DNA of 42,287 bases, taken from the NCBI GenBank assembly GCA_017624905.1, contig JAGAMD010000010.1:1-42287 (forward strand), written 5' to 3'. Below the pieces are notes generated by a model that was not told the DNA's origin, ran no database searches, and saw only the letters and a list, made by a program, of their open reading frames with translations. Both the position numbers and the translations under genes were made by a program. The stretch comes from Clostridia bacterium (GTDB lineage Bacteria; Bacillota; Clostridia; Oscillospirales; CAG-272). Positions 5,452 through 41,600 of the stretch are shown here, in pieces (within the stretch, counting starts at the first letter, position 1; each line of letters opens with the position of its first letter).

Positions 5452-7281
5452 GTGCGAGACTATTTAAGCGAAATTAAAAACATGTCGTACAAGGAAATGA
5501 CAGCCTTAAGCGACGAAATACGTCAAAAAATAATCACCACAGTTTCAAAAAACGGTGGACACCTTGCCTCCAATCTCGGCATAGTGGAGACAACGGTTGC
5601 ATTGCATCACGTTTTTGACTCGCCAAACGATAAGCTTATTTTTGATGTTGGACATCAGTCCTATGCTCATAAAATACTAACAGGCAGAGAGGACTCATTT
5701 GATACTCTACGCAAATTTGGTGGTATATCGGGCTTTCCAAACAGATGTGAAAGTGAGCACGATGTATTAAACGAGGGACATAGTGGCACATCAATTTCGG
5801 CAGCGCTTGGTATTGCCGAGGCAAATAAGCTAGCTGGAAATGATAACTATGCCATAGCGATTATTGGCGATGGCTCTTTAACAAACGGTATGGTCTATGA
5901 GGCGTTAAACAACTGTGCACACAGAGGACTTAAGCTGATTATTGTAATAAATGACAATGAAATGGCTATTTCTAAAAACGTTGGCGGTCTGCCTAAGTAT
6001 CTGTCAAAATTCAGAGTGAGCCGTAGCTATTTCAGACTCAAAAGAAGTGCAAAGCGTGGCTTTAGATTCATTCCTATTATCGGTAAGCCCTTTGCAAGAT
6101 TAACAGCCGGAATTAAAAACGCATTTAGACGTGCGTTTGTAAAGAGCACTTTCTTTGAGGACTTAGGGCTTGACTATATCGGCCCTGTTGACGGCAATAA
6201 TTTAAAGAAGCTTGTTTTGGTTTTAAAGGAAGCAAAATCACGTGGCGACTGTACAGTTGTACATATTAAAACTAAAAAAGGGTTCGGCTATGAGCAAGCA
6301 GAGAACGAGCCTAGTAAATACCACGGTGTTGGTTGCTTTGACATAGAAAATGGAGCAATTGACTCGACTGAGGAAACATTTTCAACCTTTGTAGGCAATA
6401 CTCTTACAAGGATGGCAAGAGAGGATGACAAGATTTGTGCTATTACCGCTGCTATGTGCGACGGCACAGGCTTAACTCCATTTGCCGAGGAGCATCCAAA
6501 TAGATTTTTTGATGTTGGTATTGCTGAGGAACACGCAATAACCTTCGGTGCCGGCCTTAGTGTAAGCGGTATGAAGCCTGTTGTGGCTATGTACTCAACC
6601 TTTGCACAAAGAGTATATGACCAAGCATTTCACGATATATCAATACAAAAGCTACCGATGACCTTGCTCCTTGACAGAAGCGGACTTGTTGCAGGTGATG
6701 GAATAACCCATCAGGGCATATTTGACGTCTCGCTGTTTTCATCAGTTCCAAACGTGAAAATCTACTCGCCGGAAACGTATAGCGAGGTCGAAAAATCACT
6801 AAAAACAGCACTAAGCGATAACGATTTTGATATTATAAGATACCCTAAGGGAAGTGAAAAATCATACACTCCGTCCCTTGAAATGATATATGACGAGAAT
6901 AATATGTATTATTATTCAAGCAATATAGATAAGGCTAAAAATGTTATTATCACCTATGGCAGAATAACCTGCCTTGCAAACGAGGTGATAAATGAGCGTA
7001 AGGATGATACCGCACTTATTAAGCTTGTGCGTATTTTCCCGCTTGATTATGAGGAAATAGCTAAGCTGTGCAAGGACAAGGAGCTTGTATATATTCTTGA
7101 GGAAGGATATATTCACGGCGGTGTTGGTGAAAAGCTAAGCGGTACACTAAATAGAGTAGCCAAGAATGTCCACATCCACGCAATAGAAGGACTGCTTGAG
7201 CACGGCGAACTTGACGACTTGTATCGCATTTGTGGCTTTACTAAGAACGAGATAATTAGTCGAATGAATAATGTTTGTTGA
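5452..7281 (+). CDS. dxs: 1-deoxy-D-xylulose-5-phosphate synthase
   Basis: This 609-aa thiamine-diphosphate enzyme condenses pyruvate and glyceraldehyde 3-phosphate into DXP, the first step of the MEP isoprenoid pathway. Signatures seen are HQSYAHKILTGR, GHSGTSISAALG, the ThDP/Mg motif GDGSLTNGMVYEALNN (about residue 140), the transketolase-like pyrimidine domain GIAEEHAITFGAG, and DRSGLVAGDGITHQGIFD. The last differs from the commoner DRAG-GDG-THHG form at two positions, as in a divergent Clostridial branch. The start is GTG 5452, chosen for AAAGGAGG at 5437-5443. It is monocistronic here with no other MEP genes adjacent. The wider transketolase family is the only serious alternative. Confidence 0.88.
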   Translation: MRDYLSEIKNMSYKEMTALSDEIRQKIITTVSKNGGHLASNLGIVETTVALHHVFDSPNDKLIFDVGHQSYAHKILTGREDSFDTLRKFGGISGFPNRCESEHDVLNEGHSGTSISAALGIAEANKLAGNDNYAIAIIGDGSLTNGMVYEALNNCAHRGLKLIIVINDNEMAISKNVGGLPKYLSKFRVSRSYFRLKRSAKRGFRFIPIIGKPFARLTAGIKNAFRRAFVKSTFFEDLGLDYIGPVDGNNLKKLVLVLKEAKSRGDCTVVHIKTKKGFGYEQAENEPSKYHGVGCFDIENGAIDSTEETFSTFVGNTLTRMAREDDKICAITAAMCDGTGLTPFAEEHPNRFFDVGIAEEHAITFGAGLSVSGMKPVVAMYSTFAQRVYDQAFHDISIQKLPMTLLLDRSGLVAGDGITHQGIFDVSLFSSVPNVKIYSPETYSEVEKSLKTALSDNDFDIIRYPKGSEKSYTPSLEMIYDENNMYYYSSNIDKAKNVIITYGRITCLANEVINERKDDTALIKLVRIFPLDYEEIAKLCKDKELVYILEEGYIHGGVGEKLSGTLNRVAKNVHIHAIEGLLEHGELDDLYRICGFTKNEIISRMNNVC

Positions 7282-9984: not shown

Positions 9985-10020
9985 CAAAAGTGTACCGGCT
10001 CGTACCGGTTTTTTTGTTTT
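9985..10020 (+). terminator. terminator-like hairpin just upstream of the phage-like operon
   Basis: A TACCGG/CCGGT-type stem around GTACCGG-CTC-GTACCGG is followed by a T run, about 35 bases before the first gene of the operon. I see no good -35/-10 pair between it and the gene. It could end upstream reading or act as an attenuator at which the operon is switched. Coordinates may be off by a few bases. Confidence 0.5.
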
Positions 10021-10052
10021 ACAATAGAGGTGCGAAGGCAAAGGAGGAACTA

Positions 10053-10400
10053 ATGGCAAAGAAGGACGAGCAACTATTTTTTATAAGCGAGAGCAAAAAA
10101 AGGGACGAAAAGAAAAAAAGGCGCAGAAAAGCAAAATCATTAAGCGAAAACACCTCGTTTAAGGAGTCTTTTGCTAAAATCCTTGCGCTAGAGGTCCCGA
10201 GTGAAGCACTTGCAGACGTGATAAAGGAGTCGCCTCTTGGAGAAAAAATAAGCTATCAGGAGGCAATACTCCTTGCACAAATTATAAAGGCGACAAACGG
10301 TGATACACAGGCTGCAACCTTTGTAAGAGATACCTCCGGAAACAAAATTAAGGAAACGGACGGCAAGGAGATACAAAGGAAAAAATTTGAGGATTTTTAA
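10053..10400 (+). CDS. phage-like small protein (possible small-terminase/DUF5681-type), 115 aa
   Basis: Start ATG 10053 (MAKKDEQLFF) is chosen for AAGGAGG at 10041-10047. The N-terminus is a highly basic Lys/Arg segment (residues about 15-30). The C-terminal half contains EAILLAQIIKATNGDTQAAT followed by FVRDTSGNK. This resembles the 'A-I-x-GD-x-A-x-x-x-RDT-GEK' pattern common in small proteins next to terminase genes of Clostridial phages; that match is from memory of the family, not a search. It is the first gene of the operon and lies 15 bases before the adaptor-like gene. In a complete phage, large terminase, portal and capsid genes would be expected after such a protein; here they are absent. 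Confidence 0.55.
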   Translation: MAKKDEQLFFISESKKRDEKKKRRRKAKSLSENTSFKESFAKILALEVPSEALADVIKESPLGEKISYQEAILLAQIIKATNGDTQAATFVRDTSGNKIKETDGKEIQRKKFEDF

Positions 10401-10415
10401 TACACAGGAAAGGAG

Positions 10416-11063
10416 ATGGAAGAAATAAAAGTTGGAGAAATTAAAGCACATTCTATTATGCTTATCTGTCCGGAGGTGGAAATAAGCTACGATGTAGACG
10501 ACGAGGACAGCTTAACCGACACAATAGAAAGCTTAAGGTGTGATCCAAATATAAGAGATATAGCTCTTGGCATAGTGCCATCAATTAATCGTGCATTTTC
10601 TCTTATTGAAAAAAGAGGAGGCACACGAAAAAAGAGCAAAACACTTAGGCTTGAAGCTCTTGAAAAAATAGGCAGACGCTCAAGAGTACCACTCGTCAGC
10701 ATCTCGCCCGACATACTCTTTGTAGAGAGCATATATTTTGAAAACGGAGAAAAAATTCCGTTTGATGTAGAATGTGATGACGAAATCTATATCCACTCAC
10801 AAAAAAATGGAGAATACACCTTTATTTACAGCACTAGGCTGAAACGCTTGACCGAAGCAACAAGCGACAACGAGGACATTGACCTTGACGAGGGCATAGC
10901 CGAAATTATCCCATACTTTGTAAAGAGTGAGCTAATCGCATCAGAAAACAGCGAGGAATCAAATGCGTCAAGATTGCTTTTTGACGGGATTTTAAAGGAG
11001 CTGACCGCTATTAGTCGAGGTAGCACAAATCAAGTGGTAGATACTGTTTATTTCTTTGAGTGA
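10416..11063 (+). CDS. phage head-tail adaptor-like protein (T7 gp11-type), 215 aa
   Basis: The middle is beta-rich, and a C-terminal alpha-helical stretch reads GIAEIIPYFVKSELIASENSEESN then LLFDGILKEL. This pattern of a hydrophobic helix, acidic break and second helix is typical of podovirus/siphovirus adaptors that sit between portal and tail. The assignment rests mainly on position, since the next gene looks like a tail nozzle. The ATG follows AGGAAAGGAG with almost no spacing, so the true start is uncertain. It contains no membrane segment. It could instead be an unrelated tail accessory protein. Confidence 0.45.
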   Translation: MEEIKVGEIKAHSIMLICPEVEISYDVDDEDSLTDTIESLRCDPNIRDIALGIVPSINRAFSLIEKRGGTRKKSKTLRLEALEKIGRRSRVPLVSISPDILFVESIYFENGEKIPFDVECDDEIYIHSQKNGEYTFIYSTRLKRLTEATSDNEDIDLDEGIAEIIPYFVKSELIASENSEESNASRLLFDGILKELTAISRGSTNQVVDTVYFFE

Positions 11064-11070
11064 GGTAAAT

Positions 11071-13563
11071 ATGGCAAAGAAATACAAATATACATACAAA
11101 GAGATAGGCGGAACAAGTCAAAATGAAAAAAAAGGCATTTCATATGTAAAAAATATGATAAACGAAGGCTCAATCAATGTGAAAAGACGGGGACATATAA
11201 ATGTTGCCAAAATCACGGATATTGACCTAAATCCCTTAAAAATTAATGGTATTTACAGCTACTCACAGATAGAAAACGGCGAAGGACAGGAATATAAAAT
11301 AGTCCACGCAAAAAATAAGCTTTTTAAATGCAAGAATGATTTTTCAAGCTATGAGGAGATTGAGTCAAGCTCTTTGATAAACGACTCAAAAAGCCAAGCA
11401 CTCCCTGTCGGCAACAGCCTTTTTATAGTCGGCTGTGGTGAGATGCTTTTATATGACGGAGTCGAGCTGAAAAGTGCATACGGGGACAAAAAAGCATATA
11501 TACCGACAACAGCATTTGGCATAACCGACATAACACAGCCCGACAAACGAGTGGTGGGCGAGGAGCAAAACCTTTTAACTCCACGCAGAATTAACAGGCT
11601 AAGAGGCACACAAAGAACACCTAGCGTGTTTTTGCTTGATAGCAACGTAAGGTACGGAACAAAGCTAATACTTGAGGTTAAAATACGCACTGTAACAAGC
11701 TCCCAAGAGGAGGAATACCAAAACGCAACCTCGTATATAGGTATTGATAAGGACGGCAACGAGGTTAGCACGATTGCAACAATTCGCTACGAGGTATCAT
11801 CAGTCAGCGACGGCTCGTCGTTTTTTGTAACCGAGCCGATAAAGGACATAGATGGAAACGAAATAAGCATAAAAAGGGGCGATAAAACCTATCTATATAA
11901 TCAATTGCCCTTTGGCGTATCGATAAAAAATCATAAAGAGGTGCACCTATCCTTTGAAACAACACCACCCTTTGAGGACGAGGACAACATAACCGTTGAA
12001 TACGAGTCAAAAAACGAGGACACAGGCGACAAGCTATCAAACGCAACTCACCTTGCACTGTCAAATAGTGATAACGGAAAAGCTATTTTTGTAGCTTGCT
12101 TTGGAGATAATAAGCTCTATTTCAGCGACAGGGACAAGGGAATTTATCATATGCCACAGGGAAACGAAATTTCTCTTGGCAGCGAGAGTGAGCCGATAAC
12201 AGCAGTCATAAGGCTAAGCGACAATATGATAGGCGTCTTTAAGAAAAACAGCTTTTATCGAGTTAGATTTACCTCGTCAAATGAAAATGGCTATGAGGTG
12301 TTTTTCTCAACCGATCAAATCGGTGCAATAAATCAGGGCAGTGCTTGTGTTGTAAACAATGAGTGCCTTGTGTTTAATGAAAGAGGTATATATAGCGCTA
12401 GTGATTATAGGTCGGGAGAAAACGCTTTTTCTCTGCTTAAGGAGTGCTCCCCTGACATAAGAGCATACCTTAGCCATCACACAAAAGAGGAAATAAAAAA
12501 TGCTCTTGCAATATCAGTTGACAAAAAGCATTATCTTTTTATTGGAGAAAATGTATATATTACCGACACCGACTCAAGAGTAAGGAAAAGCACTGCATCA
12601 AACTATTCATACGAGCTTTGGGTGTGGGATTTTATGACTGTAACAAGCGTATATGCCGATGGAAACGATATCTATTTTGGTCTTGAGAATGGCGAAATCA
12701 GAAAATTTAGCGATAAGTATTATGATACCGACCTGGTTTATTACAAAACCGATGAAAATAGCCTTCTTTTAAAGCAAGAGGAGAACGCAACAGGCTTTGT
12801 CTTAGGTGGACTTTATGAAGGTCGTGGGAAGATGGTAAAAATCACTCTTAGCGACCACGAGGTGCTTATAACTCGTGAGGCAGAATATAAAAACGGAGAG
12901 CTATGCTTAGCTGAGGGCTTTCTTTATAAGGACGGTACGCCTAAAATTTATGATGGTATGACCATTACACTGTACGACAAGTACGGCACACAGATATCAT
13001 CCGGCACTGTAGCCTCGACAAATATAGTTAACAGGAGTGTAATAATAGACCACCCGCTTATCGAGGGCGAGGTCTATGTCGCTTATCTAAAGGAAGACGA
13101 CTCCTTTGAATACGATATTGAAAGCACGACATCGTGCAAATATCTACTGAGAAACGGTGAAAGAATAACCATAAGGACACAAGAGCCACTAACGCTTACA
13201 CAGCATAGAAGAGAAAATGTAGTATGCGAGTATAAAACCATACCTCTTTGCTTTGATAAGCCGACTACAAAAAAGACACTAAAAAATGTCTATCTAAAAA
13301 TACCAAAATGGTCAAAAGGGGAAATAAATTTAGAGCTTGAAACCAAAAGAGGCAAGCTGAAAAGAGAAATAAATTTAGGCAACCCCATTGATTTTGACAG
13401 TCTTGATTTTGACAGCATTTCGTTAAATAGTGAGCTTGATATTATAGTGAGGGTAAAGGCGTTTATGCGTGGCTTTGAATATCTAAGCTTAAAAATCACG
13501 TCAAGCGACGGTAAGCAATTTGGGCTTGACACAATATATTTTGAATATACGGAGGAAAAATGA
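11071..13563 (+). CDS. podovirus tail-nozzle-like protein (T7 gp12-type), 830 aa
   Basis: Start ATG 11071 (MAKKYKYTYKEIGG) has GAGG upstream and lies seven bases after the previous stop. The protein is almost all beta-strand. It has propeller-like blades, notably HLALSNSDNGKAIFVACFGD, NKLYFSDRDKGIYHMPQGN, then PITAVIRLSDNMIGVFKKNSF and YELWVWDFMTVTSVYADGND. The 'lookup in the propeller' pattern (YFSD, I-x-A-I, D-N-x-I-x-V-F-K) is typical of tail tubular protein B/nozzle proteins that form the end of the short tail of podoviruses. It has no signal peptide. Its stop overlaps the next start (ATGA). The reading frame is intact over its full length, which argues against a decaying remnant. Confidence 0.6.
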   Translation: MAKKYKYTYKEIGGTSQNEKKGISYVKNMINEGSINVKRRGHINVAKITDIDLNPLKINGIYSYSQIENGEGQEYKIVHAKNKLFKCKNDFSSYEEIESSSLINDSKSQALPVGNSLFIVGCGEMLLYDGVELKSAYGDKKAYIPTTAFGITDITQPDKRVVGEEQNLLTPRRINRLRGTQRTPSVFLLDSNVRYGTKLILEVKIRTVTSSQEEEYQNATSYIGIDKDGNEVSTIATIRYEVSSVSDGSSFFVTEPIKDIDGNEISIKRGDKTYLYNQLPFGVSIKNHKEVHLSFETTPPFEDEDNITVEYESKNEDTGDKLSNATHLALSNSDNGKAIFVACFGDNKLYFSDRDKGIYHMPQGNEISLGSESEPITAVIRLSDNMIGVFKKNSFYRVRFTSSNENGYEVFFSTDQIGAINQGSACVVNNECLVFNERGIYSASDYRSGENAFSLLKECSPDIRAYLSHHTKEEIKNALAISVDKKHYLFIGENVYITDTDSRVRKSTASNYSYELWVWDFMTVTSVYADGNDIYFGLENGEIRKFSDKYYDTDLVYYKTDENSLLLKQEENATGFVLGGLYEGRGKMVKITLSDHEVLITREAEYKNGELCLAEGFLYKDGTPKIYDGMTITLYDKYGTQISSGTVASTNIVNRSVIIDHPLIEGEVYVAYLKEDDSFEYDIESTTSCKYLLRNGERITIRTQEPLTLTQHRRENVVCEYKTIPLCFDKPTTKKTLKNVYLKIPKWSKGEINLELETKRGKLKREINLGNPIDFDSLDFDSISLNSELDIIVRVKAFMRGFEYLSLKITSSDGKQFGLDTIYFEYTEEK

Positions 13564-14699
13564 GTCAGGTATATAAAATAACAGACGAGGAAATTAACCA
13601 AACTATTTTACATTCCCCTTATTCACTTGCCGACTCTCCGGCTAAGGCAGGGCTTAAGGCTATGCAGATTAAAAAATATTTCTATGAATTTATTCGATTT
13701 TTTGCCGGAAAGATAAACATTCATTTGGATGATATCGGTGAAGGCTTTGATAATATTGATTTGCTCCTTGAAGAGATAAATCAAAAAATACTTGACCTTG
13801 AGGCATCAGATTTATCTATCGGCGATGCGATAAAATCAAATATCAAGGCGCACAACATAAGCACGGGAGCGCATCTAGATATAAGAAATGAGACAGTATC
13901 AAAGCTAAGTGCACATAATATTAGCTCAACAGCCCACGGGGATATTCGCTCTTACCTAAAGGAGCTTAAGGACAAGCTCAATGTAGCATATACCTTAGCA
14001 AGTGGTAAGCAAAGGGTTTATCCATGCGACACAGCCTTAGATGCTATTATCAAAAGTGCAACGGGAGATATTAATGTTGGCGATTTGCTTTTGGTAAGAG
14101 ATGAGAGCGAGGTTGACTTTACTGTTTTTGAAAAAAGCGTATCACAAGCCCAACAAGACGATATAGAGGTTGACTATACAGCCTTAGTAAACGGAGAGTT
14201 TACCTTTGAGGCGGGGAAAATGTACTTTTTCAAGGGTAAACGATTACTTGCCTCAAGGGGCAATCTTGAAACAGGCTTACTTGCTAAGCAAGACGACCTT
14301 GACGAGCTTGAAAATCTTGTTTTAGCAAATGCCGAGGCAATAGGAGAAAAGCTAACCGAGCTTGAAAATATTCTGTCCCTCAAGCAAAATAACAAAGAAA
14401 CGGTTGATAATACATCAGAGGTTGTAACCTTGGAAACCGACCACGAATACAATCTTGGACTAAGAACAAGCGTTATAATTGAGGTTGAGTCAACGAAGAT
14501 AAATTCAATTATAAACTTCAGAAGCGGAACAACACCAACCTCATTTGATGCACCGAGCGATATCATATTTACGGGTGATGACACGCTAAACGGCAGACTG
14601 TATCCTGTTTCAAACCGACTCTACGAGATTAATATTAAAAATGTTATGGGAGCTTTAGTCGCTCGTGTTGGTGCAAGTGACTATGAAGTAATAGAGTGA
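13560..14699 (+). CDS. phage tail fibre/appendage protein, 379 aa
   Basis: It has an N-terminal helical segment (residues about 1-90) and two copies of a fibre motif, AHNISTGAHLDIR and AHNISSTAHGDIR (about residues 97-125), well known from tail fibres. A short beta domain, a coiled-coil stretch (DDLDELENLVLANAEAIGEK, about 240-275) and a beta-sandwich tip (INFRSGTTPTSFDAPSDIIF then GDDTLNGRLYPVSNRLYEI) follow. That tip is common at the ends of Clostridial phage appendages. It is translationally coupled to the nozzle gene by ATGA. The protein would link the tail to a receptor-binding tip. Confidence 0.7.
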   Translation: MSQVYKITDEEINQTILHSPYSLADSPAKAGLKAMQIKKYFYEFIRFFAGKINIHLDDIGEGFDNIDLLLEEINQKILDLEASDLSIGDAIKSNIKAHNISTGAHLDIRNETVSKLSAHNISSTAHGDIRSYLKELKDKLNVAYTLASGKQRVYPCDTALDAIIKSATGDINVGDLLLVRDESEVDFTVFEKSVSQAQQDDIEVDYTALVNGEFTFEAGKMYFFKGKRLLASRGNLETGLLAKQDDLDELENLVLANAEAIGEKLTELENILSLKQNNKETVDNTSEVVTLETDHEYNLGLRTSVIIEVESTKINSIINFRSGTTPTSFDAPSDIIFTGDDTLNGRLYPVSNRLYEINIKNVMGALVARVGASDYEVIE

Positions 14700-16096
14700 A
14701 GTATTTTGAAAATAACCGCAGAGGGCTAACAAAGCATCACTATATAAGAGGCACAGAAAAAACCGTAAGTGGAACAAGCTCAGTATCAATCGAGGACAGT
14801 GCAGGTGTACCTCTAAAAAGAATAGAGATTGTCGGCAAAACAGTGCAAAACGGAGTGCCGAGCAAGGAATTGCCCGTTGATATTCAAAGCTCAAACAGTA
14901 ATGGAGCAAGCTCTATTCTGTTTTCAAAAAATCTAGCTACTGCTAAGCAGATTTGCAAAGGCTTTGGTTTGTATAGAGAGGAAAACAAAGACGGTAGAAA
15001 TTGTATTTACTACACCCATAATATAGGCAAAGAGAATGTAATCGAGGGTGGATTTAAGGAAAACACTCAATATACCATTTCATTTGATTGGATTACGGGA
15101 AAAGACATCTATGGTAGTACCGGTATCTTCACACCACTTCTAAGAATTCTGTACACAGACGGAACTGCAACAACTTTGAATAATAACAACATATCAAACG
15201 TGTGGAAAAACACAACTTTCACCACAACACCGGGAAAAACTGTTTCATCAATAGGCACACTCTCCATAACGAATGTTCAAATATGGATTGATATAGATAC
15301 CTTTATAATACAAGAGGGAGCAGTAACAAGTCCTGAATACGAGCCATATTTTTGGGATGAAATTCCACTGCCTACATCATTGGAGGTAAGCGGAGAAGAG
15401 ATACCGCTAATTCTCAGCGAGTATGACAGGATTGTGGTCGATACTTCAAAAAACAAGGTTATATATCATAATGGAGGCTATTATAAGGATTTTTATGCTT
15501 CTTCGGGCATGGGCTCTTCCACAAATCCGAGCAAGGTGTGGGCAAAAATCCCCTGTGAATTGACAGGAAACGGCTATTGCTCTCACTTTGAAAAAAACAG
15601 CTTTGCGTTTGAAAACAATTTAGGCTTTGGTACCTCCGGAATTTCATTTCTCACATCGGTTTTTGCGTCTACCACAGCTCTTAGTGAGTTTTTAGACGAG
15701 CAAACGACAAACGGAACACCGCTTACAATTCTAGCCGAAAAGCAAACACCGACTGAATACGATATAACAAGCACAGAGCTAGGTCAAAGGCTACTTGCCC
15801 TGTTTGTACCAAAGGGAGCAAACGGCACACTTGAGCTTTCTAGCGATGTTGGTATTACCTCGCTTGATTTAAGCTACTATTCAGAAACAAAAGAGGACAC
15901 AGTGAAAATAACTATTAAATACATAAATGAGGCAGGAGAAGAGATAGCTACATTAAAGGAGCATAATGTACGCAAGGCTTCAAAATGCCTAATTATAGCA
16001 CCGCATATTGAGGGCTATACTCGTGTGTCAACCGAGGTCTACGGTGTGGCAGACGAGGACACAACAATTGAATTACTTTATAAGGAGGCACAGTAA
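14696..16096 (+). CDS. phage tail appendage/receptor-binding protein with C-terminal MucBP-like domain, 466 aa
   Basis: The start is GTG 14696, overlapping the previous stop (GTGA). Residues about 35-75 contain the IVGKTVQNGVPSKELPVDIQ segment, and about 75-215 look like a carbohydrate-binding-type beta-sandwich ending AVTSPEYEPYFWDE, a layout common in distal tail proteins of Clostridial phages. The last 70 residues (VKITIKYINEAGEEIATL to YGVADEDTTIELLYKEAQ) resemble the MucBP domain of bacterial surface adhesins, so a mucin- or sugar-binding fold may be fused to the fibre. It ends TAATG at the next gene. Receptor unknown. Confidence 0.6.
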   Translation: MKYFENNRRGLTKHHYIRGTEKTVSGTSSVSIEDSAGVPLKRIEIVGKTVQNGVPSKELPVDIQSSNSNGASSILFSKNLATAKQICKGFGLYREENKDGRNCIYYTHNIGKENVIEGGFKENTQYTISFDWITGKDIYGSTGIFTPLLRILYTDGTATTLNNNNISNVWKNTTFTTTPGKTVSSIGTLSITNVQIWIDIDTFIIQEGAVTSPEYEPYFWDEIPLPTSLEVSGEEIPLILSEYDRIVVDTSKNKVIYHNGGYYKDFYASSGMGSSTNPSKVWAKIPCELTGNGYCSHFEKNSFAFENNLGFGTSGISFLTSVFASTTALSEFLDEQTTNGTPLTILAEKQTPTEYDITSTELGQRLLALFVPKGANGTLELSSDVGITSLDLSYYSETKEDTVKITIKYINEAGEEIATLKEHNVRKASKCLIIAPHIEGYTRVSTEVYGVADEDTTIELLYKEAQ

Positions 16097-16380
16097 TGCT
16101 ACCATATAAAAATGTATATAGCATACAAGACGGTAGGCTAATAAAAAACAAGGAAAACAAAATTGAATACTATGACGAAGAAGGCAAGAAAAGAGTAAAA
16201 ACAAATCCATCATATAAGGATTTTGCAAAAGTGGGAATGTATCCCTTAAAGGAAAGCGGACAAGCTGATTCCAAGGGTGAAGGAGCGACCTTATCAACCA
16301 CGGATGTGGCTCTTTATGAAAAGGCTGAAAAATACGTCATAGAAAACGGCTATATTTTAGTTATGGAGGACAAGAAATGA
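16096..16380 (+). CDS. small phage-like protein of unknown function, 94 aa
   Basis: A soluble, charged protein (start MLPYKNVYSIQDGRL) with AAGGAGG upstream and a one-base TAATG overlap with the fibre gene. There is no membrane segment. Its place directly after the distal fibre gene is that of short fibre chaperones or assembly proteins in phages, but I recognise no motif. Its stop overlaps the next start (ATGA). Confidence 0.6.
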   Translation: MLPYKNVYSIQDGRLIKNKENKIEYYDEEGKKRVKTNPSYKDFAKVGMYPLKESGQADSKGEGATLSTTDVALYEKAEKYVIENGYILVMEDKK

Positions 16381-17099
16381 ACGTAAAAAAGCTACTTTTA
16401 TCAGTAGGTACGCTTTTGCTTTTCACTGTAATTTTTTTGCTCTGCTTCCATTGCTTTACCAAGGCAAGCGAGCTACCAGACGAGATTTCTTTGGAAAAAA
16501 ATAGCGAAAGCACAATAGCCCCGGAGGGCGATGGTGATAAGAACAGTACAATCAACGAGGAAAGCACCACCGATAAAACAAGCACGGAAAACAGCGATAA
16601 CACCACTGCCGAAAGCACAACCGAGGATAAGATAACAACCACCGAGGTAGTTTCCAAGGGCAAGGAAATTGGCATATATATAAAGGAAAAGATACTACCC
16701 GTTGTTGTAGGTGTTTTAACATCTGTTTCAGCACTTCTTGCTACTTTAGTAGCAATTAAACGCTCACTTACCTCGGTTAGCGAGGCAAAGGACACCTTTA
16801 AAAGGGAAGCTAAGGACAGAGAGGAGCAGTTCAAGAAGGAAAGCGAATACTTAACAACAAAGGCAGAGGAAATAGAAAGAACGCTATCGTTAGTTCCACA
16901 GCTACAGGGTGAAATTACAGCTTTAGAGAAAAACACGGAAAAGCTGATTAAGAAATGTACATATCTTGGCAAAATGATATCTCTTGGCTTTAGCCAAAAT
17001 GAAGAGGTTGTAGCAAGTGGCAACGGCAAGAAAATCAGCCGTTTGCTTGAGGAGTGCCAAAGACTAGATACATCTTATGGGAGTGAAAACGAGCAATGA
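16377..17099 (+). CDS. membrane-anchored protein with Ser/Thr/Glu linker and coiled coil, 240 aa
   Basis: Residues 4-26 form a membrane helix or signal anchor, and about 30-95 are a low-complexity acidic Ser/Thr/Glu/Asn linker (TTDKTSTENSDNTTAESTT) likely outside the cell. A second helix (about 106-127, ILPVVVGVLTSVSALLATLV) is followed by a charged coiled coil (about 130-205) inside. Both termini would be cytoplasmic with the linker exposed. It is coupled by ATGA to its neighbours and has a good ATGGAGGA site. It could be a surface or release-control component of the phage-like module. No family recognised. Confidence 0.65.
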   Translation: MNVKKLLLSVGTLLLFTVIFLLCFHCFTKASELPDEISLEKNSESTIAPEGDGDKNSTINEESTTDKTSTENSDNTTAESTTEDKITTTEVVSKGKEIGIYIKEKILPVVVGVLTSVSALLATLVAIKRSLTSVSEAKDTFKREAKDREEQFKKESEYLTTKAEEIERTLSLVPQLQGEITALEKNTEKLIKKCTYLGKMISLGFSQNEEVVASGNGKKISRLLEECQRLDTSYGSENEQ

Positions 17100-17503
17100 A
17101 GAAAATGAAAATTCCTCTTTTGTACGCTCTTTCCTTCCTTTGCAGTGTACTTCCTGTGCTTATCTACTTTCTTATTAATCACGAGAGCTATATAAGCACA
17201 ACACCGGAAAAGGTTAAGCTTCTTTTCGGTGGTGTTTTGGCAGTTGCTATTTTAATAACTAAGACAATCGGCGTTTTAAAAATCAACTCGGGAATTACGC
17301 TTTTTGCATTGGTTTTTGCATTTGCATATCTGCTTGAGGGAATAATAAACGACCTTTTAATCTTTTCGTTTTTAGCCCTTGTTGGCGAGGTTTTAGCGTT
17401 TATTGTACGACTGATTATAAAGTCGCAAAGGGAAAAGGACAAATTAGAAAAAACAGAACAAGCAATAGAAAAGGTAATTGCCAAAACAAACGGTAGGGTA
17501 TAA
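17096..17503 (+). CDS. holin-like four-helix membrane protein, 135 aa
   Basis: About four membrane helices are predicted by eye (residues about 5-26, 41-60, 64-84, 86-107), followed by a charged cytoplasmic tail (KSQREKDKLEKTEQAIEKV). Small size, several helices and a charged tail after the fibre genes are the usual profile of a phage holin, but no specific holin family is recognisable. No endolysin gene accompanies it. ATGA overlap with the previous gene. Confidence 0.5.
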   Translation: MKKMKIPLLYALSFLCSVLPVLIYFLINHESYISTTPEKVKLLFGGVLAVAILITKTIGVLKINSGITLFALVFAFAYLLEGIINDLLIFSFLALVGEVLAFIVRLIIKSQREKDKLEKTEQAIEKVIAKTNGRV

Positions 17504-17505
17504 AA

Positions 17506-18381
17506 ATGAAAAAGACCTTTCAGGAGCTATTTTTTAAAAACGCAGGCTACTTTGCCGTTTTATTAATCTCACTTGCTTATATTGCGGGTAGCTTTATTTT
17601 AATTTCATCAACCGGCAAAACCATCTATGAGATAATAGCGACCGGTGTTATTAGCTTAATTGTCGGCGTGCTTATCACAGGTGTTTTTCGCTCTTTGGGA
17701 ATACAAAAGGGCGAGGAGGACGAAAGGACAATTTCAACGAACCACCTATATGGAGAAACGGTTGAGAGCAGTGTGCCTTACATTGATAAGCTGGAGGAAT
17801 TTTGTGAGCTTGAAAACAAAAATGCACAAATATCAATACGCAAAAAAATCCTTGCTGTCGTTGGCTTGAAATACGACGATTGCTTTGACGAAAACGGAGT
17901 TTGCAAGGAATATAACTACGAGCTATACAGCGAGGAGATAATTGAAAAAGCCAAAAGCAAAAAGCAAAAAAGACGCTACAAAAGAGTAAACTCAAAGCGT
18001 AAAAAAGCATACTTTAAGGCAGTAAATATCAAAATAAAGCTTTTAACTCCAAGTGCACTTACCTCATCAAGCATAAAGGAAAACGATCCGTTTAATTTTG
18101 GTAAAACCAAAAAGGAATATACCTCACAAAGAAACATTTCCGATATGGCAACAAGAGTAGTAATGGCGATAATTTTCGGCTATTTTGGAGTCAGCTTTGT
18201 AAGCGAGGTCAACTTTGCAACGCTCATTTGGAATATACTTCAAATTGTAATGTATATAACCTCCGGTATTATTCAAATGTACGCAAGCTACTCTTGGATT
18301 GTTGATGAGTATCGCTTGAATGTCATCAAAAAGATTGACTATCTTCAAAAATTCAAAAAGTTTGCCGAGAATAAGAAATAA
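17506..18381 (+). CDS. four-helix membrane protein with basic cytoplasmic domain, 291 aa
   Basis: Two membrane helices at the N-terminus (about 14-33 and 41-63) and two at the C-terminus (about 217-238 and 242-266) flank a soluble, very basic central region (SKKQKRRYKRVNSKRKKAYF near 151-170). It starts two bases after the previous stop and is the last gene of the operon; no clear terminator follows before the next promoter at 18389. The family is not recognised. It may belong to the phage-like module or be a cargo/effector gene. Confidence 0.6.
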   Translation: MKKTFQELFFKNAGYFAVLLISLAYIAGSFILISSTGKTIYEIIATGVISLIVGVLITGVFRSLGIQKGEEDERTISTNHLYGETVESSVPYIDKLEEFCELENKNAQISIRKKILAVVGLKYDDCFDENGVCKEYNYELYSEEIIEKAKSKKQKRRYKRVNSKRKKAYFKAVNIKIKLLTPSALTSSSIKENDPFNFGKTKKEYTSQRNISDMATRVVMAIIFGYFGVSFVSEVNFATLIWNILQIVMYITSGIIQMYASYSWIVDEYRLNVIKKIDYLQKFKKFAENKK

Positions 18382-18447: not shown

Positions 18448-19296
18448 ATGGAAAACGAGAAAATTTTAGAGCTTAAAAAAATCGCAACCGAAATCCGTTT
18501 AGGTGCGGTTGAAGCTGTATTCAATGCAAAATCGGGACATCCAGGAGGAGCACTTTCAAGTGCAGATATTCTTGCTTGTCTATATTTTAATGAGCTTAAT
18601 GTTGATGTAAGCAATCCAAAATGGGAGGACCGCGACCGCTTTGTTCTATCAAAGGGACATTCCTGCCCGGGACTTTATTCAGCTCTTGCACTAAAGGGCT
18701 ACTTTGACAAGGAGGAGCTAAAATCCTTTAGACACACAGGAGCACTTTTACAGGGACACCCTGATATGAAGGCGATTAATGGCGTTGATATGTCAGCCGG
18801 CTCACTTGGACAAGGCTTTTCCTGTGCTTGTGGTATGGCTCTTGCAGGTAAATTAAATAACAAGAGCTATCGCACATACGCACTCGTTGGCGATGGCGAG
18901 AGCCAAGAGGGACAGGTTTGGGAGGCAATTATGTTTGCATCTCACTATAAGCTTGACAACCTATGTATGATTATTGATAATAATGGTCTGCAAATTGACG
19001 GACGCGTTAGCGATGTTATGAACGTTATGCCTTATGAAAGTAAGCTAGAGGCTTTTGGTTGGAATGTTATTTCTATCGACGGACATAATATTGCACAAAT
19101 CCTTGATGCCTTCAAAAAGGCAAAGGAAGTAAAGGGTAAGCCAACTGCAATTGTTGCAAAAACAATTAAGGGCAAGGGCGTTTCCTTTATGGAGGACCAA
19201 GCATCCTGGCACGGCAAAGCACCTAACGAGGAGCAATACAATATAGCAGTTAGTGAGCTTACAGCATACAAAAATTCTTTAGGGGGTAATAACTAA
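18448..19296 (+). CDS. transketolase, N-terminal subunit
   Basis: This 282-aa protein is the ThDP-binding half of a split transketolase. Motifs are AKSGHPGGALSSADILACLYF, SKGHSCPGLYSALA, the ThDP/Mg site LVGDGESQEGQVWEA followed by IIDNNGLQIDG, and IKGKGVSFMEDQASWHG. The length is normal for the N-subunit. With the C-subunit it moves two-carbon units between pentose phosphates and glycolytic sugars. The stop overlaps the next start (TAATG), giving coupled synthesis. The split is the usual Clostridial form, not a frameshift. Confidence 0.92.
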   Translation: MENEKILELKKIATEIRLGAVEAVFNAKSGHPGGALSSADILACLYFNELNVDVSNPKWEDRDRFVLSKGHSCPGLYSALALKGYFDKEELKSFRHTGALLQGHPDMKAINGVDMSAGSLGQGFSCACGMALAGKLNNKSYRTYALVGDGESQEGQVWEAIMFASHYKLDNLCMIIDNNGLQIDGRVSDVMNVMPYESKLEAFGWNVISIDGHNIAQILDAFKKAKEVKGKPTAIVAKTIKGKGVSFMEDQASWHGKAPNEEQYNIAVSELTAYKNSLGGNN

Positions 19297-20240
19297 TGGC
19301 AGATAAGATAGCAACAAGAGAAGCCTATGGCAACGCACTTGCTGAGTTTGGTGCAACAAACGAAAACATAGTAGTTTTAGATGCAGACCTTGCCGAGGCA
19401 ACAAAAACTTGTGTATTTAAAAAGCAAATCCCTGAAAGATTTTTTGACTGTGGTATAGCAGAAAACAATATGGTGTCGGTTGCAGCAGGTCTTTCCACCT
19501 GTGGCAAAATCCCATTTGTAAGCACATTTGCTATGTTTGCGGCAGGTCGTAGCTTTGAGCAAATTAGAAACTCAATAGGCTATCCGCACCTAAATGTAAA
19601 AATTTGTGCAACTCACGCAGGTATTTCTGTTGGTGAGGACGGTGCAACACACCAATGTAATGAGGACATCGGTCTTATGCGTACAATTCCCGGTATGGTT
19701 GTTATCAATCCAAGCGATGGAGTTGAGGCAAGAGAGGCTGTAAAGGCAGCAATCGACTATAATGGCCCTGTATACATTCGCTTTGGTAGACTTGCTCTCC
19801 CAATTATCAATGATAACGATAGCTATAAGTTTGAAATCGGCAAGGCTATAAAAATGGCTGATGGTAAGGATGTTACAATTGTAGCTAACGGTATGATGGT
19901 AGCAGAGGCACTTGAGGCAAGAAAAATCTTGGCAGAGGAAGGCATTTCAGCTTCTGTTATCAACGCACACACAGTAAAGCCACTTGATGCTAAGACAATT
20001 GTAGATGATGCAAAAATCACAGGTGCAGTTGTTGTCAGCGAGGAGCATAATATTATCGGTGGTCTTGGCTCAGCAGTTGCTGAGGCAATAGCAGAAAGCT
20101 ATCCCGTTCCGGTAGTTCGCCACGGCGTAAACGATGTATACGGTAAGAGTGGTCCTGCTAAGGAGCTTATTGAATACTACGAATTAAACGCAAAGGGAAT
20201 AGTTGATAAGGTAAAGAAGGCTTTGAGCCTAAAGAAATAA
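19296..20240 (+). CDS. transketolase, C-terminal subunit
   Basis: This 314-aa protein holds the pyrimidine-binding and C-terminal domains. It shows VLDADLAEATKT, the conserved catalytic Glu in FDCGIAENNMVSVAAGLS, FAAGRSFEQIRNSIGYP, THAGISVGEDGATHQCNED, and a Rossmann-like C-terminal domain with VVSEEHNIIGGLGSAVAEA. It is the partner of the preceding gene, sharing a start/stop overlap, and is followed by a strong terminator. Such pairs can be hard to separate from DXS-type enzymes, but size and pairing favour transketolase. Confidence 0.92.
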   Translation: MADKIATREAYGNALAEFGATNENIVVLDADLAEATKTCVFKKQIPERFFDCGIAENNMVSVAAGLSTCGKIPFVSTFAMFAAGRSFEQIRNSIGYPHLNVKICATHAGISVGEDGATHQCNEDIGLMRTIPGMVVINPSDGVEAREAVKAAIDYNGPVYIRFGRLALPIINDNDSYKFEIGKAIKMADGKDVTIVANGMMVAEALEARKILAEEGISASVINAHTVKPLDAKTIVDDAKITGAVVVSEEHNIIGGLGSAVAEAIAESYPVPVVRHGVNDVYGKSGPAKELIEYYELNAKGIVDKVKKALSLKK

Positions 20241-38608: not shown

Positions 38609-41600
38609 ATGAAAAACAAGCTCTTAAGTATTATTTTTATCATATTAATTACAATGTTTGCATTTTCTTCTTGTGGTATAATAAACCTAGGAAATGCAAA
38701 TACAAGTACCGAATCTAATAAGAAAACAGACACAGAGGAAAAAGGAAAAATAGTAGCAGTTACCAGAGTTGAGTTGAGCCAAACCAACATGACCTTGATA
38801 GAGGGAAAGCAGGCAAAGCTGATTGCTACTGTTTATCCAAGCACTGCTACAGATAAAACCGTGGAATGGGAGTCTTCAAATCCCAAGGTGGCAACTGTAA
38901 AGAATGGTTTAGTTGAAGCAAAGCAATGTGGCATTGTGGTAATATATGCATTTACCTCTAATGGTGTAGAAGCATCTTGTACAATTAATGTTTTACCATC
39001 AGAGGATGATTCAAGCAACATAGAAAATCCAAGCGAACCGGAGAATCCAATTGAACCGGACAATCCGGTTGTACCAGACGAACCAACCGAACCAGAAAAT
39101 CCAAGCGAACCGGAGAATCCAATTGAACCGGACAATCCGGTTGTACCAAACGAACCAACCGAACCAGAAAATCCAACCGAGCCAGAGGAACCAACTGAAC
39201 CAGAAGATCCAACTGAACCAGAGGAGCATGTCCACACGGAAGAGATATTGCCAGCAGTTGCACCAACCTGTACTGAAACAGGTCTAACAGAGGGCAAGAA
39301 ATGCTCAGAGTGTGGTGAAATTTTAATTGCACAAGAGGTCGTTGGCACGCTTGGTCATGATTATGTTGAGAACGAGGCAAAAGAGCCAACCTGCACTGAA
39401 ATTGGTTGGAACGAATACCAAACCTGCTCAAGATGCGAATATACAACGTATGAGGAAATATCTGCTCTTGGTCATGATATGCAATTTGCTGAAACAGTGA
39501 AACCAACCTGTGTTGCTAATGGTTATGATATATACGATTGCTCAAGATGTGAAAGAACAGAGCATAACAATATTACCTCTCCAAGCAATAGTTTTGATGC
39601 TCATTCATACGAAACGATAGGGGTAGCACCAACCTGTACAAGCGCCGGTTATAGCGACGAGATTTGCTCATTGTGTGGCTGTTCTGCCGGAAATAGAGAG
39701 ATTTTAGATGCGCTTGGTCACGACTATGTTGAGAACGAGGCAAAAACGCCAACATGCACAGATATAGGCTGGGATACATACCAAACCTGCTCAAGATGTG
39801 ATTATACAACATATGAGGAAGTACCTCAGCTAGGTCATAGTTATAATGGAAATTATGTATGTACAAGATGTGGTGGCGATTGCCCTGTAAGCCAAGGCTT
39901 AGAATTTACTCTTGATACCGCAACCGATACATATATAGTTTCCGGTATGGGCACTTGCGCAGATACAGATATAGTCATTCCTTATACATATGAGGGAAAA
40001 TTAGTAACAGGTATAGAGGGTAGTGCGTTTGCATCTAAAACAAGCATTACAAGTGTAACAATACCAAATAGCATTGCAAGCGTAGGATATAGAGCATTTG
40101 ATGGTTGCACCTCACTCGAATTCAACGAATATGGCAATGCTTATTATCTAGGTAATAATGACAATCCATACATAGTACTCATAAAGGCAAGCGATAAAGC
40201 TATTACGTCTTGCACGATAAATGAAAATGCAAAAATATTAATGAGCTATGCGTTTAGTGATTGCAAAGCTTTGGAAGAAATTAATTTTAATGCAATTTCA
40301 ATGTATGATTTAGACGAAAGTAATACAGCATTTAAAAACGTCGGACAAGAGGGCGGAGGAATTACATTGAATATAGGAAACAGTGTAACAAAAATTCCTG
40401 CGTATTTGCTATACATAGATAGAACCTCTTATCTCCCTAATGTAACAAGCATTGTCTTTGAAGAAAACAGCGAATGCGAAAGCATAGGAAATTATGCGTT
40501 TTATTTGTGCGATAGCTTGGAAAACATAACATTGCCTAACAGTATAACGAGCATAGGAGATAGTGCATTTAGAGGCTGTAGCAGTTTATCAAGCATAGAA
40601 ATACCAAATGCTGTAAAAACTATAGGCAACTCTGCATTCTATCTTTGCGATAAGCTAACAAGCATTACAGTAGGAAAAGGCGTTACAAGTATTGGAAGCG
40701 AGGCGTTTTATTCCTCCGACAACATAGCTTACGTAAATTATCTTGGAACAATCGAAGAATGGAATAACATATCCTTTGCAGATTGTTATGCTAATCCACT
40801 GTGTTATGCAAAGAAATTATATATTAGCGACGAGCTTTTATCGGAGCTTGTTATAAAAGACACTGTAACAAAAATAAATAGCTACGTATTTTATAATTGT
40901 ACAAGCTTAACAAGCATTACAATACCAGAAAGCGTAACAAATATAGGAAGTTATGCATTCTATGGTTGTGCTGGCTTGGAAGAAATTAATTTCAACGCAG
41001 TGGCTATGGACGATACATATAGTAATTATACGTTTGATTTTGCAGGAAATAGCAGTGATGGAATAACTGTAAATGTAGGTAAAAATGTAACAAAAATACC
41101 TTCGTGTTTGTTCTATTCCGAATCCACAAGCTTCTCGCCAAAAATAACAAGCGTAGTTTTTGACGAGAACAGCGTATGTGAAAGCCTAGGAGCGAGTGCG
41201 TTTAATGGATGTACAAACTTGACAAGCATAACATTGCCTAGTAGTATAACTAGCCTAGGAGTGAGTGCGTTTAATGGATGTACAGGCTTGACAAGTATAA
41301 CAATTCCAAATGGTGTAACAAGCATAGGAGCAAGACTTTTTAGTGGTTGCTCAAGCTTGACTAGCATAGAAATACCAAACAGTGTAACTACCATAGGTTC
41401 GAGTGCTCTAAGCGGTTGCTCCAAGCTTGTAAGTCTAACAATTCCGTTTGTTGGAGGAAACGCTAGCGCTACAACAGCCTCGAGCTCTACTTTGTTCGGC
41501 TATATATTTGGAACAGCTAGTTATACAAACGGAGTAGAAACAGAGCAGTATTATTCCTCCACAGGTAGTGCAACCTATTACATACCATCAACTCTAAAAA

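Follow-up and report, generated by a model that had tools for sequence, protein, structure and literature searches.

A head-less tail operon in gut Clostridia is probably one half of a split, podovirus-derived gene transfer agent

Introduction

Why would a bacterium keep an intact set of phage tail genes with no head genes beside them? The question is raised by a 42,287-base stretch of DNA from a Clostridia bacterium (Oscillospirales; CAG-272), which we call the window. The window is the entire contig C2 of a 1.5-Mb metagenome-assembled genome (MAG) that is 74.7% complete, and it carries nine co-directional genes on the + strand (10053-18381, about 8.3 kb), all with intact frames. A first-pass annotation took this tail operon (T) for a retained, selected tail module and named a head-less, short-tailed particle as one candidate. 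We think it probable that T is the tail half of a split, vertically inherited gene transfer agent (GTA) of podovirus origin, with its head half (H) at another chromosomal site. We favor this reading because T and H are complementary, co-occur, follow the host, are mostly intact, are selected where tested, and share a genome-specific operator.

We label genomes with G (G000 is the window's own genome), contigs with C, and fetched loci with L. Our genus sample had 29 genomes, counting G000, and a wider search with the nozzle gene of T covered 57. The relatives are recorded as MAGs titled Clostridia or Oscillospiraceae bacterium, and many are from the guts of deer, sheep, or goats.

Results

The head genes are in a second operon

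Among the 27 window proteins that were searched (small open reading frames (ORFs) and a 1179-aa ORF at 38609 were outside the search), we recognized no large terminase subunit (TerL), portal, capsid, protease, integrase, or endolysin, in agreement with the first-pass annotation. Contig C32 of the same genome encodes a head-only cluster, H, of about 5.3 kb: TerL, portal, scaffold, and coat. H has no adaptor, nozzle, or fibre genes, and in several genomes it lies on long contigs.

Matches to the nozzle were found in 25 of the 57 genomes, of which 23 are in the window's genus (22 besides G000). By gene content, 17 of the 29 genus genomes have the head-less operon T (G000, G001, G002, G003, G004, G005, G007, G009, G011, G012, G013, G016, G018, G022, G024, G025, and G026; it is divided over two contigs in G001, G018, G022, and G024). 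The survey of relatives that had been suggested thus turned up 16 other genomes with the operon, a recurrence beyond what chance would give. H is present in all of the T genomes except G022 (16 of 17, and 16 of 29 in the genus; it is in contig fragments in G005 and G024). TerL and coat are each present in the identical set of 22 of the 29 genomes.

Other members of the genus have unsplit clusters. In G014 and G028, the order is g1-TerL-portal-scaffold-coat-adaptor-nozzle-fibres...g9 (g1 to g9 are the genes of T; in G028, a second contig carries g7-g9), and the two genes that come after g9 in related prophages are absent. Put together, T and H give the gene order of this cluster. Up to the nozzle position, it is also the order of phage P22 (genes 3-2-1-8-5-4-10). 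In the G010-type genomes (G010, G017, G019, and G023), the small terminase subunit (TerS), TerL, and the genes up to the nozzle lie beside a conserved 500-aa gene (in G023 the cluster is spread over contigs). In G010 and G023, the part from the fibres to g9 is on another contig and ends beside decarboxylase-type host genes (by eye).

T and H each have constant host neighbors. In the window, dxs and a 558-aa protein lie upstream of T and a split transketolase (tktN, tktC) lies downstream; g9 is followed by tktN in 15 of the 17 T genomes (not in G001 or G005). In the six genomes where we found neither nozzle nor TerL (G006, G008, G015, G020, G021, and G027), nothing of the kind is inserted beside tktN, and its neighbor is a large gene that resembles mfd (by eye). 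H is flanked on one side by genes for ACT-domain and UPF0210-like proteins, a PLP enzyme, and a MetA-like protein; the opposite flank has ParB-, Soj-, and ParB-type genes (the names are partly by eye, with Pfam hits for ACT and ParB). In the window's own genome, H ends 650 bases short of the contig end, and its downstream flank was judged from the relatives. In G001 (L056, L068; C121, C172) and G005 (L092; C120), the tkt pair adjoins the MetA-like and PLP genes that flank H. In these genomes, T and H may be about one metabolic block apart, which is a possible intermediate of the split.

An active prophage would have integrase, replication, repressor, and lysis genes alongside its structural genes. 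We recognized none of these beside T or (by eye) beside H, in contrast to the genome's own prophage (L077). According to the first-pass annotation, adjacent head, terminase, and integrase genes in close relatives would point to an ordinary prophage. There are none at the T locus; head genes do adjoin the tail genes in unsplit clusters elsewhere in six genomes and in separate true prophages.

All 14 of the aligned TerL proteins from H (one is a near-copy from a suspect contig) retain the ATPase residues (Walker A as KGRQQGFTT or KSRQQGFTT, and the acidic residue of Walker B), the coupling motif ETTANG, and the acidic residues of the nuclease. The interrupted TerL of H in G013 (C48; L076:242-2001) shares an identical stretch with the IMG/VR contig L144. 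The suspect contig is C31 of G016 (L071), a second head cluster whose proteins are 95-100% identical to those of G007; it is probably contamination. A search with Terminase_3 (PF04466) gave no match in the window's own genome and was uninformative.

T and H share a promoter that is specific to each genome

T, H, and the unsplit clusters are preceded by the same element, which lies before g1 in T and before TerL in H: AAAAGTGTACCGNTCNGTACCGGTTTTTTTATGCAATAAT. We scored it with a weight matrix that was built from the T, H, and unsplit elements themselves, so the scores are circular at those loci (two independent tests were added). The score was above 12 at 16 of 17 T operons, 15 of 17 H clusters (one of them on the suspect G016 contig), and all 6 unsplit clusters, and the maximum among 300 shuffled stretches was 7.9.

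A genome-wide search with a consensus pattern found 26 sites in 12 of the 29 genomes, all of which have T or an unsplit cluster, and the reversed pattern had no match in the 29 genomes. The sites comprise 8 at T, 7 at H plus the one on the suspect contig, 2 at unsplit clusters, and 8 extra. A variant, CTAACGGTCACTAACGG, has 15 sites, which are exactly in the four G010-type genomes (control, 0).

Furthermore, the operators of T and H match within each genome. Across the 17-bp repeat, the mean distance between T and H was 1.50 within the same genome versus 7.30 between genomes (16 genomes; G022, which has no H, and the suspect G016:C31 were omitted). None of 100,000 free permutations was as low, nor was any of 100,000 in which H was permuted within host subclades (lowest, 25; observed, 24). 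In nine genomes the T-H distance was 0 or 1 and the genome's own partner was strictly nearest each time.

We scanned 16 prophage or phage loci, and 13 had no match above 12.

Both operons follow the host, and the genes tested are under purifying selection

The group of G000, G003, G009, G011, and G012 was recovered alike in the host (tkt), g9, and TerL trees. The g9 and tkt trees also both show {G001, G005}, {G002, G013, G016, G024}, and {G004, G007, G018, G022, G026}. (L066, L076, L094-L096, and L172 were omitted from the TerL tree, and portal matches of the four G010-type clusters were artefacts and were excluded.) In the TerL tree, H and the unsplit clusters are apart from the prophages.

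Distances between the phage-derived proteins correlate with host distances (Mantel tests; L066, L071, L076, and L094-L096 omitted). The values of r were 0.79 for the nozzle, 0.76 for g9, 0.67 for the adaptor, 0.65 for the portal, and 0.61 for TerL (0/5000 each), and the weakest was 0.37, for the coat (41/5000).

For the T pair G004/G022, dN/dS was 0.12-0.25 over eight T genes (all except g6), as compared to 0.04-0.06 for transketolase. It was 0.01-0.28 for four H genes of the pair G007/G016-C31 and 0.05-0.42 for the unsplit pair G014/G028; other T pairs, including the window's, were saturated at synonymous sites. Thus the tested T and H genes are under purifying selection. With a conserved operon, low dN/dS, and distances that follow the host, the view of T as a retained module rather than a rotting prophage holds up.

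What the genes of T encode

Coordinates are given in Table 1. The first-pass annotation described nine intact genes, most of them overlapping, and the ORF calls and junctions agree (13563/13560 ATGA, 14699/14696 GTGA, 16096/16096 TAATG, 16380/16377 ATGA, and 17099/17096 ATGA).

Table 1. Features of the tail operon and its surroundings in the window (by eye: judged without a profile match).
Feature	Position	Strand	Remarks
dxs (host flank)	5452..7281	+	TIGR00204
Promoter/operator element	9992..10025	+	GTACCG direct repeat spaced 10 bp, T tract, -10-like box
g1, small-terminase-like, 115 aa	10053..10400	+	homologues directly upstream of TerL in L048, L050
g2, head-to-tail adaptor, 215 aa	10416..11063	+	9d83_B match; position as P22 gene 4
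g3, tail nozzle/hub-like virion protein, 830 aa	11071..13563	+	Bacillus phage Page gp15 homology
g4, fibre-like, 379 aa, AHN/AHxDIR repeats	13560..14699	+	
g5, fibre-like, 466 aa	14696..16096	+	weak MucBP-like C terminus (E 0.0044, under Pfam cut-off)
g6, 94 aa	16096..16380	+	present in some T loci and prophages
g7, 240 aa, signal/TM and coiled coil (by eye)	16377..17099	+	conserved in T, unsplit clusters, prophages
g8, 135 aa, small membrane protein (by eye)	17096..17503	+	conserved in T, unsplit clusters, prophages
g9, 291 aa, membrane protein (by eye)	17506..18381	+	among best conserved T genes
Transketolase N and C halves (host flank)	18448..20240	+	conserved T neighbour

Judging from its sequence and its relatives' position, g1 is small-terminase-like: its homologues lie immediately upstream of TerL in two unsplit clusters, and its C terminus is KKFEDF, while small terminases of the prophages terminate in KFEDL/M. 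Helix-turn-helix (HTH) models from Pfam matched none of the 17 members of the g1 family. HTH models do match the TerS of the genome's own prophage, weakly and under the cut-offs, and the TerS of G010 (the only G010-type one aligned) is without the HTH region of the prophage TerS. A small terminase without a detectable DNA-binding domain is described as a GTA trait in the excerpted text of PMC11841831, and the g1 family has this trait.

The profile of g2 matched a solved protein, 9d83_B ("Head to tail adaptor Gp50"), with E = 2.2e-5, which supports the proposal of a head-tail adaptor. The nozzle/hub-like g3 is homologous to gp15 of the Bacillus phage Page, a podovirus virion structural protein (hhalign 99.4%, E = 1.1e-21); with tblastn, the best E was 3e-5, in Bacillus phages of the Page kind. 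The description of g3 as T7 gp12-like found no support in sequence: neither T7 gp12 (719 residues supplied) nor P22 gp10 matched, and we rejected both as homologues of the nozzle. Scanning IMG/VR with the window nozzle gave no match. Both g4 and g5 are fibre-like, as was proposed, and the AHNxS...AHxDIR repeats, which had been ascribed to the two together, are in g4. In prophages, unsplit clusters, and T loci alike (e.g., L040, L046, L047, L049), contigs repeatedly end within the fibre genes, which suggests repeats or strain variation there. No Pfam family could be assigned to g7-g9 above the cut-off, and a profile search of the T proteins found no lysis family over cut-off.

Related prophages in the same genomes

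The window's own genome also contains a complete cluster of related head and tail genes, which lies at one end of C13 and continues into C38 (141-base overlap). Behind it are genes of 356 and 2257 aa, along with early-type genes and a regulator resembling cI (by eye), and it is a true prophage. The P22-type portal model PF16510 matches in this prophage with 8.1e-12. Related full prophages are also present in G004 and G018. A fibre gene of the genome's own prophage (L003:8052-20000, L077:1-20000) shares a near-identical C-terminal stretch with g4 and is 77% identical to the start of g5, which suggests exchange between the prophage and T.

In the prophages, g9 is followed by genes for large internal proteins, c72 and c73, which do not follow g9 in T. 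We considered a third structural locus that would hold these genes and rejected it: c72 is present in just 2 of the 29 genomes. Pieces like c73 were found in 13 of the 29 genomes, and the eight outlying places that were fetched (one of which, G026:C9, is a prophage contig) have no operator. L343-L346, from the T genomes G022, G025, G011, and G003, hold isolated chromosomal pieces that resemble the middle of the 2257-aa prophage protein, also without the operator.

Replication genes are behind the same operator

In G011, two of the extra operator sites precede phage-type replication genes: a DnaD-like helicase loader on C48 (phrog_2514, 4.9e-19) and a replisome organizer on C1 (phrog_13246, 4.1e-12). 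Searching with the latter found 29 places in 16 of the 29 genomes. We read 27 of these places, and the element is at 14 of the 29 (in G001, G002, G010, G011, G012, G013, G017, G018, G019, G023, and G024). It is missing from three places that lie on prophage contigs and from ten that match weakly, at the C terminus.

The operators of the replisome-organizer genes resemble the T and H operators of their own genome (summed distance 16, versus a permuted mean of 57.1; 0/100,000 free permutations as low). For permutations within subclades, the mean was 36.0 and 15 of 100,000 were as low. This test used 8 sites in 7 split genomes. Excluded from it were the four G010-type genomes, which all carry a single operator variant, and the G000 and G022 sites, where the genes are cut or of another family. 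The replisome-organizer operator of G013 is nearer to G024's than to its own.

Besides T and H (C32), the window's own genome has the element on C37 and C8. On both, the open frame behind it is cut short by the contig end and, by eye, looks like the protein on G011 C48. One site in G022 precedes an 80-aa DUF6291 protein. On C101 of G024 (L279), an operator-like site precedes a DeoR/HTH_11 regulator, beside a Hol44 holin and an AAA ATPase; this is a candidate regulator or lysis locus. Other operator-like sites (G022 C26, L280; G025 C31, L283; L330-L334) either precede unrelated genes (by eye, an AAA ATPase, a nagA-like gene, and an argG-like gene) or lie close to the end of a contig.

Discussion

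A probable split gene transfer agent

We infer that T and H would assemble jointly into particles that package DNA unspecifically, are released, and deliver it. In such a scheme, one trans-acting activator would read the GTACCG-type direct repeat and turn on T, H, and the replisome-organizer genes together. Scaffold and coat would assemble a procapsid on the portal; TerL and g1, which has no detectable DNA-binding domain, would load the heads with unspecific host DNA; and the g2 adaptor and g3 nozzle would close the portal. The fibres g4 and g5 may attach to kin, and release of the particles could be due to the membrane proteins g7-g9 or to host factors. These short-tailed particles would then carry chromosomal DNA into related cells.

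Three of six GTA criteria, taken from the excerpted text of PMC9662315, describe what we found. The structural proteins derive from caudoviricetes. The system is fully endogenized and, as is often the case for GTAs, occupies more than one locus: T and H each have their own conserved site among host genes. And it is inherited vertically and co-diversifies with its host, with the coat the weakest and deep branches unresolved.

Several observations weigh against a split GTA. The particle, its packaged DNA, and the transfer are predicted from genes, and we identified neither a lysis gene nor an activator for the GTACCG-type repeat. G022 has T and no H was found (this MAG is 86% complete), and the TerL of H is interrupted in G013. 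In the TerL tree, H does not form one clade, the unsplit clusters fall among its members with weak support, and the separation of both from the prophages has 80/99 support only. The g9 tree does not separate T from the prophages (24% of bootstrap trees have T as a single clade), and with host markers the split genomes form one group in just 9% of bootstrap trees. Because the deep branches of the TerL, g9, and host-marker trees do not resolve, a single split event is not shown. Once the host was removed, no correlation between T and H distances was left (r = 0.07, 0.13, and -0.20), and we rejected co-evolution of T and H beyond that with the host. As for the operator, both elements of G016 score under the shuffled maxima (their best 33 bases are identical to one another), and that of H in G013 is just above (9.4). 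With the consensus pattern, just 8 of the 17 operators at T and 7 of the 16 at H were found; the remainder are variants that it does not cover. In G009, G012, G013, and G026, a foreign H operator is nearer to T than the genome's own. Finally, two outgroup prophages carry a similar element (L130, 26.8; L136, 22.6 before the packaging genes and 15.2 elsewhere), and L046 has a weak one (12.4). The promoter type is therefore phage-derived and by itself not diagnostic.

Alternative explanations

The particles might hold DNA without transferring it and act as PBSX-like bacteriocins or as decoys against related prophages, which we consider rather unlikely. PBSX particles package DNA and yet are bactericidal (according to the excerpted text of PMC12946183). 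Interference is conceivable, as related full prophages share these genomes (the window's own, G004, and G018), and the absence of c72 and c73 after g9 could impair injection. Transfer of DNA is a better fit to a packaging motor, an adaptor, and several fibres that are kept under purifying selection, and to replisome-organizer genes under the same switch.

A tailocin is a lower probability still in our judgment. T alone would form a head-less, short-tailed killing particle, and H would be unrelated or make empty shells. It is true that T is a self-contained and conserved transcription unit with variable fibres, and that one genome has T without a known H. This would leave H behind the same operator in 16 of 17 T genomes to be explained, along with the conserved motor and nuclease residues of TerL and the TerS-like gene that is retained in T, and an adaptor and nozzle with no portal would seem to have no evident base for assembly. 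A tailocin is expected to be tail-only, with no head or packaging genes, and that is not what we found; we dropped this as the main explanation once H was found, and the head-less particle of the first-pass annotation is unlikely.

We consider it very improbable that T and H are an ordinary prophage that assembly, binning, or a recent rearrangement has broken in two and that is now decaying. In favor of this, the genomes are MAGs, many contigs end inside fibre genes, the TerL of H is interrupted in G013, and one head contig of G016 is near-identical to that of G007. Against it, long contigs from many genomes show T and H each with constant host flanks, the frames are intact, the operators match, and dN/dS is far below 1.

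Comparison to known systems

In design, T and H are best read as closest to FpGTA from Faecalibacterium (2026), a GTA-like element encoded by two operons, whose particles measure about 40 nm and contain 8.4-8.9 kb of host DNA; its authors describe it as podovirus-like and as the first GTA of that morphology (PMC12946183). As far as the excerpted text of that report goes, both systems are podovirus-like, are from gut Clostridia, and have two separate operons; both have a TerS without an obvious DNA-binding domain, TerL, portal, scaffold, and capsid, and operons without DNA replication genes. The same text indicates several differences. Particles with DNA have been demonstrated for FpGTA, whereas T and H are known from genes. 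The TerS of FpGTA is in the head operon with TerL, whereas the TerS-like g1 is in T. The second operon of FpGTA has lysis genes (holin, endolysin) as well as tail genes, whereas we recognized no lysis gene in T. And for FpGTA that text mentions neither a genome-specific shared operator nor replisome-organizer members nor relatives with an unsplit cluster. The likeness described here is one of design and gene content.

BaGTA, from Bartonella, has a host and a phage ancestor that are unrelated to those here, and RcGTA is siphovirus-like with a main cluster that holds head and tail together. BaGTA is similar in its vertical inheritance, conserved chromosomal position, and linked, phage-derived replication module (excerpted text of PMC6899734); here, the link to replication is the shared operator, and amplification is only proposed. 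The RcGTA family likewise has genes scattered over several loci and co-diversifies with its hosts (excerpted text of PMC9662315).

Among phages, the likenesses are to Page, in the nozzle, and to P22, in the order TerS-TerL-portal-scaffold-coat-adaptor-next tail gene and in the P22-type portal of the genome's own prophage. Page and P22 are complete phages, whereas no replication, integration, or lysis genes were recognized beside T and H. R- and F-type tailocins and PBSX are, like T and H, domesticated phage structural genes. Here, by contrast, a head, a portal, and a packaging motor are kept elsewhere behind the same operator.

Our literature search, largely at the level of titles and abstracts, found no published description of a split system with this layout.

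Implications

A podovirus-like GTA was reported once in the literature that we found (FpGTA, from the excerpted text), so T and H are a second candidate, from a different clade. They come with an evolutionary record: unsplit relatives, a clean partition of head from tail, and a switch whose sequence changes together at distant loci. The operator is also a sequence signature for finding other members of the regulon, including the activator and lysis genes. More tentatively, heads, tails, and replication initiators at scattered sites might form a three-part regulon under one rapidly co-evolving activator, in a GTA that amplifies host DNA before packaging. Such a system, which is possible but doubtful, would be analogous to the run-off replication of Bartonella and independent of it, and would be vertical in a genus of gut Clostridia, with the unsplit form persisting in related lineages.

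More broadly, a "head-less" phage operon can be half of a working particle. Our results suggest that the production of particles is a heritable trait of a genus of gut Clostridia whose known relatives are largely from ruminants.

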